From positions 1 to 27,495 of the IMG/VR virus record IMGVR_UViG_3300008116_000214: 27,495 nucleotides of DNA; one strand, written 5' to 3'. Positions within the stretch are counted from its first letter, which is position 1. Each line of letters begins with the position of its first letter. A program made the position numbers and the translations under genes. The notes under the pieces were generated by a model. The model searched no databases, was not told the origin of the DNA, and saw only the letters and a list, made by a program, of their open reading frames with translations. This document shows, in pieces, positions 1,846 through 4,777 of this stretch. This stretch comes from a virus.

Positions 1846-2223
1846 ATGGATAAGCACAGTATTGCTGCTTACCTAGAATACTTAGGAGCCAGCCTGCCAT
1901 CAGTTGGGCACGGCTGGCGCAAGATAAAGTGCCCGTTCCATGATGATGGACATGCGTCTGCTGGTATTAACTTTGATGACCAGCGATTTAAATGTCACGG
2001 TTGTGGAGTAGGTGGAGATGTGTACGATTTAATTATGTATAAGGAAGGAGGTAACTATCGTGAGGCTGTCCAATTCGCAGAGGCAATTTCTCCTACAGGC
2101 AACACAAGAGTATACAAAAAACATACACATGGCAACGGAGTATCTAATGACACGCGGCTTATCGGTCGCAGAAGTGCAACCGTTTCATCTCGGAGTAGTC
2201 AAGGACGCTCTTCCAGGTCATGA
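1846..2223 (+). CDS. DNA primase, N-terminal CHC2 zinc-finger part
   Basis: This 125-residue frame encodes the DNA-template-binding zinc finger of a DnaG-type primase. C29-P-F-H32 and C50-H-G-C53 form the canonical CHC2 site, and the following GDVYDLIMYKEGGNYREAV matches the helix that normally ends this domain. AAGGA at 1833-1837 precedes ATG 1846. Recognisable primase sequence ends near residue 82 (about base 2091); the rest, rich in Ser, Arg and Thr, looks like out-of-frame reading. The catalytic TOPRIM half continues in the next frame (2060-2686), so a single-base shift near 2091-2129 would join them into one primase of about 280 residues. As it stands this part could not make RNA primers on its own. 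Confidence 0.8.
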   Translation: MDKHSIAAYLEYLGASLPSVGHGWRKIKCPFHDDGHASAGINFDDQRFKCHGCGVGGDVYDLIMYKEGGNYREAVQFAEAISPTGNTRVYKKHTHGNGVSNDTRLIGRRSATVSSRSSQGRSSRS

Positions 2224-2686
2224 ACAATACAGAGGTAGACTTGCTATTCCATATGTAACACCATCTGGAATAGTAGATATTAGATTCCGTAGTATGCACG
2301 GAGAAGACCCTAAGTATATGGGTATGCCAGGTGCAAAGACAAGTATGTACAATGCACAAGCAGTACTAACAGCCAATGATTATATCTGTGTCACCGAAGG
2401 TGAGATAGATTGTATGACTGTAGTTGCTAAGACAGGACATCCAGCAGTTGGCATTCCAGGTGCCAACAATTGGAAGCCATACTATGCAAAGATACTAGAT
2501 GATTTTGAAACAGTAATTATCCTTGCAGATGGTGATGCACCAGGCTTAGAGTTTGGTAAGAAGGTAAGTAGAGAGTTGGGTAATGTAAACATTATTCAGA
2601 TGCCAGAAGGTCACGATGTAAATAGCATCGTGTTAGAACAAGGAGCGGAGTTTATAAATGAGCGAATCAGAAAATGTATCCAGTGA
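2060..2686 (+). CDS. DNA primase, catalytic TOPRIM part
   Basis: A 208-residue frame containing the DnaG-like core: YLMTRGLSVAEVQPFHLG (residues 28-45) is the usual segment before the catalytic domain, YRGRLAIPYVTPSG follows, and the TOPRIM fold shows TEGEIDCM with E113 and D117 and ADGDAPG with D157 and D159 as metal ligands. It would synthesise RNA primers at the fork. The first 23 residues are an out-of-frame reading of the zinc-finger gene and have no primase character. Two starts are possible: GTG 2060, eight bases after an excellent Shine-Dalgarno (AAGGAGG, 2045-2051), or ATG 2129. The frame is +1 relative to the zinc-finger part. Its end overlaps the next gene by 29 bases. Confidence 0.8.
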   Translation: MRLSNSQRQFLLQATQEYTKNIHMATEYLMTRGLSVAEVQPFHLGVVKDALPGHEQYRGRLAIPYVTPSGIVDIRFRSMHGEDPKYMGMPGAKTSMYNAQAVLTANDYICVTEGEIDCMTVVAKTGHPAVGIPGANNWKPYYAKILDDFETVIILADGDAPGLEFGKKVSRELGNVNIIQMPEGHDVNSIVLEQGAEFINERIRKCIQ

Positions 2687-4501: not shown

Positions 4502-4777
4502 ATGTCAGACTACCCTCGATGGGAATCAACACCAGCATGTGCAGGAACAGACACAGAGTTATGGTTTAACGAGGATGACGAGCCAGGATATAGAGAGAAG
4601 AATTTATTACAGAAGATTTGTGCAGGTTGCGAAGTACGCAATCAGTGTTTAGACTATTCATTACGGCACAGTGTTATGGGATACTGGGCAGGTACTACAC
4701 CTAGAGAGAGGCAACGGTTGCGTAAGAAGTTAGGTATTGTTTCAGAACCTATCTATAGCGCATGGGATATAGCGTGA
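4502..4777 (+). CDS. WhiB-family iron-sulfur transcription regulator
   Basis: A 91-residue protein with the four cysteines that hold the [4Fe-4S] cluster of WhiB-like proteins: C13, C40, C43 and C49 (ICAGCEVRNQC), followed by the characteristic turn GYWAGTT (60-66; usually G-V/I-W-G-G) and a basic helix PRERQRLRKK that binds AT-rich DNA. WhiB proteins bind region 4 of the primary sigma factor and change promoter choice. Members occur in Actinobacteria and in actinophages (for example mycobacteriophage TM4), so this gene marks the host phylum. AGGAGG sits five bases before ATG 4502. In the early operon it may repress host genes or help superinfection exclusion, as reported for TM4; here that is inference. 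Confidence 0.92.
   Translation: MSDYPRWESTPACAGTDTELWFNEDDEPGYREKNLLQKICAGCEVRNQCLDYSLRHSVMGYWAGTTPRERQRLRKKLGIVSEPIYSAWDIA

Follow-up and report, generated by a model that had tools for sequence, protein, structure and literature searches.

We find that the DnaG-type primase of a virus record from IMG/VR (IMGVR_UViG_3300008116_000214; all 27,495 bases were analysed and are referred to here as the window) is very probably, at about 90%, made as two separate polypeptides, the second of which (ORF2) would be translated from an internal Shine-Dalgarno (SD) sequence and GTG start codon of its own. This reading rests on selection, and is our interpretation of a split gene, its conservation among relatives, a selected start site and a stretch that codes in both frames, each of which is documented in the sequences. 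A two-gene layout for this primase is already known from annotation, where it looks ordinary but is poorly explained. The present analysis adds evidence that ORF2 is translated separately, with an internal start, and brings to light a set of misannotations; for a widespread replication gene, the choice among a frameshift, a mutation and two genes appears to be settled.

Two halves of a DnaG-type primase

All primase, helicase and resolvase features described below lie on the plus strand. ORF1 (1846-2223; 125 aa from an ATG) encodes the zinc-binding-domain (ZBD) subunit. It matches the Pfam family Zn_ribbon_DnaG (1.3e-11), PHROG 360 'DNA primase' (1.5e-26) and the solved ZBDs 2au3 (7.3e-8) and 1d0q (7.3e-6). 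Its CHC2 zinc ligands C29, H32, C50 and C53 (1930-2004), which an earlier sequence-only reading of the window had picked out, are invariant in 40 aligned ORF1 relatives. ORF2 (2060-2686; 208 aa from a GTG) lies in frame +1 to ORF1 and encodes the catalytic subunit, the RNA-polymerase/TOPRIM domain (RPD), with matches to Pfam Toprim_2 (6.8e-8), PHROG 849 'DNA primase' (1e-45) and PDB DnaG profiles (down to 2.5e-15). The TOPRIM residues E113 (in EGE) and D157/D159 (in DGD), at 2396-2536, are invariant in 42 aligned ORF2 relatives. An AlphaFold2 (AF2) model begun at the GTG is confident throughout (pLDDT 93.9), and in Foldseek it matches the DnaG catalytic core 1dde (E 1.8e-11, TM 0.79) and T7 gp4, 1nui (E 1.3e-8). 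At 208 aa, ORF2 ends just past the catalytic core and lacks the C-terminal helicase-binding domain. By homology, ORF1 and ORF2 are the two halves of one DnaG-type primase; coordinates and family matches bear out the earlier placing of the TOPRIM half in a second, +1 frame that overlaps the first by 164 bases (2060-2223).

The boundaries of the two domains were set by two independent lines, selection and predicted structure. The AF2 model of ORF1 is ordered up to residue ~82 (nt 2091), its last helix being predicted at residues 71-81 (2056-2088), and residues 85-125 are modelled as disordered; selection, presented below, ends at the same place, in agreement with the proposal that primase-like sequence leaves the first frame near 2091. 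The same proposal had the second frame take over at 2117-2129, which is too late: ORF2 aligns with mycobacteriophage primases from residue 2, its first helix is predicted at residues 5-19 (2072-2116) and selection sets in at its start codon, so that the catalytic half begins at 2060-2072.

The primase belongs to a replication cluster. A DnaB-like helicase of ~270 aa (644-1456; PHROG 243, 2.2e-70; DnaB_C, 7.7e-12) appears to consist of the ATPase domain alone, a family search having found no match to the DnaB N-terminal domain in it; a helicase in which only the ATPase domain is matched thus adjoins a primase without a helicase-binding domain. It is followed by a RusA-like Holliday junction resolvase (1453-1797; PHROG 244, 2.6e-22), and the order helicase-resolvase-primase recurs in Streptomyces phages. 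A possible 25-aa ORF at 1799-1876 overlaps the start of ORF1 by 31 nt, and Streptomyces phages also have a small gene directly before ORF1. A near-identity search of phage records with the whole window gave no match. The window carries a WhiB gene (4502-4777, from a Pfam-type family search) and its relatives are largely confined to actinophages, which suggests that the host is an actinobacterium, probably a freshwater one.

Selection on the internal start and on both frames

The SD sequence AAGGAGG (2045-2051) lies within ORF1, 8 nt before the GTG at 2060-2062, where the sequence-only reading had located it. ORF1-silent sites within the SD have changed 3-5 times each, against a mean of 11.9, and the spacer varies freely. 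One silent site of the SD is A in 80 of 85 relatives, although GGA makes up 25% of the Gly codons in the window's genes. The T of the start codon is likewise silent in ORF1, yet it is kept in 85/85; C never occurs as the first base, and relatives start with GTG, TTG or ATG but not CTG. In D29-like phages, the ORF1 codon that lies over the ORF2 start is TTT in 42 of 54 sequences and TAT in 10; elsewhere in their ORF1, TTC outnumbers TTT by 109 to 9 and TAC outnumbers TAT by 169 to 0. A strong SD at a workable spacing is found in varied coding contexts, whether ORF1 reads KEGG, EEEV or EGT there or has already ended. The SD and the ORF2 start codon are therefore under selection inside ORF1, the pattern expected of overlapping genes with internal initiation.

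By script and inspection, NTG stands at the ORF2 start in about 139 of 153 distinct start regions, and about 12 have ATC (L083, L095, L099, L102, L110, L144 and L096) or ATT (L128, L089, L201, L202 and L205) in its place. The distance to the SD is 5-6 nt in eleven of these and 9 nt in one (Espresso, L096). In the D29-like set, eight of the 10 sequences with TAT are ATC/ATT cases, and TAT is rare elsewhere; this bias gives a hint that ORF2 may start at AUC. In S. aureus, the non-canonical starts AUU and AUA occur with extended SD motifs and lower initiation (PMC13009471), a precedent that makes ORF2 starts of reduced efficiency plausible. The recurrence of AUC/AUU at this position lends itself to tests of initiation at weak codons with an extended SD. 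C. acnes phages have ATG at the ORF2 start but no clear SD.

In a +1 overlap, the third positions of ORF1 codons are second positions in ORF2, and those of ORF2 codons are first positions in ORF1, so that each frame leaves a different substitution signature. We counted changes by parsimony on trees of 85 freshwater-type (the window's group), 54 D29-type and 24 Streptomyces-type distinct sequences; sites are taken as independent in these counts, and each tree comes from the same DNA. At the ORF2 start, ORF1-silent changes per site fall from 11.9 to 2.1 in the window's group (p 2e-7), and from 9.8 to 5.2 (p 0.008) and 1.8 to 0.7 (p 0.01) in the other two sets. Conversely, ORF2-silent changes in the window's group amount to 3.7 per site in 2060-2091 versus 10.5 downstream (p 3e-5), and they are low over the first 32 nt in the other sets as well (p 0.011 and 0.009), beyond which they reach the level of ORF2-only sequence. 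Both frames are thus under purifying selection in 2060-2091, a stretch in which ORF1 helix 71-81 is encoded and ORF2 helix 5-19 begins, and past 2091 the overlap is detectably coding in ORF2 only.

The rest of ORF1 is a disordered, basic C-terminal tail (2092-2223; pLDDT about 39) without detectable selection in the window's lineage, where ORF2-silent changes run at the ORF2-only rate. The length or openness of the tail and its basic charge were within chance expectation in the freshwater and Streptomyces-type sets and in slight excess of it in the D29-like set; charge on its own exceeded expectation only in two C. acnes phages. A conserved GRR motif in the tail was considered as a sign of selection and rejected, as ORF2-silent changes occur there at the full rate. 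As no selection is seen on the tail in two of the three sets, these give no sign that ORF1 needs to be translated as far as its stop.

Spread of the split and alternative explanations

Whether related phages share the split, the check that the sequence-only reading had proposed, was examined in viral contigs, phage records and bacterial genomes, and its statement that other actinophages have a similar split primase layout proved correct. ORF2 has matches in 80 viral contigs, at identities of 66-100%, and the same +1 split recurs in the contigs that hold both halves; an offset repeated in this way across related contigs puts the split far beyond chance. One relative, L136, seemed to have a different relative frame (2), but was rejected as an exception, since the match to the zinc-finger pattern lay in a wrong frame. 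ORF2 relatives occur in 1,495 public phage records, mostly of Mycobacterium, Streptomyces, Propionibacterium/Cutibacterium, Rhodococcus and Gordonia phages; two genes named DNA primase are usually annotated in these records, and those sampled are split. The halves are homologous and adjacent, and ORF2 starts at the conserved place. The split also occurs at 15 loci in actinobacterial genomes (Mycolicibacterium, Streptomyces, Amycolatopsis and others), which probably sit in prophages, while distant ORF2 matches outside the actinobacteria lie within long single ORFs of 600-730 aa. The split is an old arrangement, common to well over a thousand phages.

Some public records of these genes are wrong. 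The record of D29 (L082) starts gp57 at 2669, whereas a start at the conserved TTG, 2495, would add 58 codons, including the first predicted helices. ORF2 is annotated similarly short in TarsusIV, an ATC-bearing phage, and in Marcell and phiHau3. In MissWhite (L084), Serenity (L097) and YGP2 (L092), the DNA contains the zinc-finger half, for which no gene is annotated. In the open literature, covered mainly through open-access papers, split or frameshifted actinophage primases appear as annotations only: Rhodococcus phage WC1 is annotated with 'two DNA primases' (PMC10986025) and Kampy with 'DNA primases' (PMC4626039).

R4-like Streptomyces phages (54 similar records) have a non-overlapping form, in which the ORF1 stop is followed by an SD and a TTG start after a gap of 13 or 14 nt. 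TrvxScott and Salutena have ORF2 in relative frame 1, and Diane, Caelum, Sentinel and R4 have it in relative frame 2; as the frame varies with the gap, a fixed frameshift cannot join these genes, and obligatory frameshifting is ruled out in R4-like phages on the strength of their gene layout. The non-overlapped ORF1 tails of Diane and Caelum are homologous to the tails of Streptomyces phages that have the overlap (the score is reached in 0-9 of 2,000 shuffles). An origin of this form by tandem duplication was rejected, the Diane ORF1 tail and ORF2 start having no DNA similarity.

Three explanations of the split had been left open: two subunits, a programmed +1 frameshift and an indel. The first is favoured by the conservation of the SD and start codon, by coding in both frames from 2060 onward and by the varying relative frames of the non-overlapping R4-like genes. 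In the second, a single slip within the overlap would give a fused ZBD-RPD primase, with or without free ORF1 protein. In its favour, a single DnaG polypeptide is matched by both halves, relatives with an overlap have ORF2 at +1 to ORF1, and the +1 frameshift site of prfB also has an SD-like motif upstream. Several observations nevertheless make a frameshift very unlikely. Selection on the ORF2 frame begins at the GTG and not at a slip site downstream, and ORF1 is constrained for a further 32 nt; ORF1-silent sites are held in 2060-2091, which argues against a slip at 2091-2129, since this would free them. The start codon and SD are conserved at ORF1-silent sites. No conserved slippery motif was found among the relatives, and AAAAAA at 2116-2121 occurs in only 9/85, so that the A6 run is not a signal. 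The start codon directly adjoins a stop in the ORF2 frame in several relatives, and one freshwater contig (L018) carries an in-frame ORF1 stop just before the SD (~2965-2985), by mutation or sequence error, with ORF2 intact. In addition, the predicted helices at 2056-2088 and 2072-2116 share 17 nt, and a ribosome that shifts once could not make both whole.

A mixture, in which mostly separate subunits are accompanied by a small, regulated amount of frameshift-fused primase, is compatible with the sequences, for recoding at a low level may leave little trace. We consider it highly improbable: a conserved recoding signal was not found among relatives, the fusion would miss part of a helix, and in R4-like phages no fixed-frame event could yield such a product. 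That a one-base indel in the A run, through assembly error or mutation, broke a single-frame gene is next to impossible, for although A6 is a plausible error site and the frames differ by one, contigs from other metagenomes that match at 100% (L001-L003) are identical across the run, relatives without it carry the same split, as do the sampled members of about 1,490 phage records with ORF2 relatives, and both frames are under selection.

A proposed mechanism and comparison with known primases

For two separately made subunits, we propose that ribosomes would initiate independently at the ORF1 start and at the internal ORF2 site. Stop-restart coupling is unlikely, because a ribosome ending ORF1 would do so 164 nt past the ORF2 start. 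The ~32 nt of 2060-2091 would serve twice, for the final helix of the ZBD protein and for the opening helix of the RPD protein, and the remaining overlap would encode ORF2 and, passively, a disordered ORF1 tail. Given the biology of the domains and their constant adjacency, the two proteins presumably act together: the ZBD may recognise the template and hold the 5' end of the primer in trans for the RPD, beside the adjacent helicase, and the strength of initiation may set the ZBD:RPD ratio. Primase subunits reportedly regulate primer synthesis in trans, to go by the title of Corn et al. 2005. Tentatively, and at somewhat less than even odds, we envisage a tripartite primosome, with ZBD, RPD and helicase ATPase as separate proteins, in which the ZBD works in trans only and the ratio is tuned by the start codon, down to AUC/AUU.

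DnaG and T4 gp61 have a flexible link between their ZBD and RPD; in T4, the template DNA lies between the two domains, which both dock on the helicase (PMC10359460). The gp61 linker has been proposed as a measuring device, but changes in its length had little effect (PMC10359460). A natural ZBD/RPD pair without a linker would allow a direct test of ZBD-RPD cooperation and of whether the linker measures primer length.

Among the nearest known counterparts are the pairs of D29 (gp58/gp57), Nedarya (gp63/gp62), UhSalsa (gp49/gp48) and the Streptomyces phage Whatever (gp38/gp39), which have the same halves, +1 overlap and internal SD and start, and are homologous to the window's pair throughout at amino-acid identities <60%. 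R4, Diane, Caelum, TrvxScott, Salutena and Sentinel have the same two proteins, the helicase-resolvase-primase order and an SD before TTG, but differ in that their genes lie 13 or 14 nt apart without overlap. Bacterial DnaG resembles the window's primase in its CHC2 ZBD, TOPRIM catalytic core and fold (1dde); DnaG, however, is one polypeptide with a C-terminal helicase-binding domain, whereas the window would have two polypeptides and lacks that domain. The ZBD, RPD and helicase ATPase of the window match the domain set of T7 gp4, which holds all three in one chain, and T4 gp61 likewise has a compact ZBD and RPD, joined by an 18-residue linker (PMC10359460). Where gp4 and gp61 are single chains, the window would thus deploy three separate proteins, a ZBD, an RPD and a helicase.
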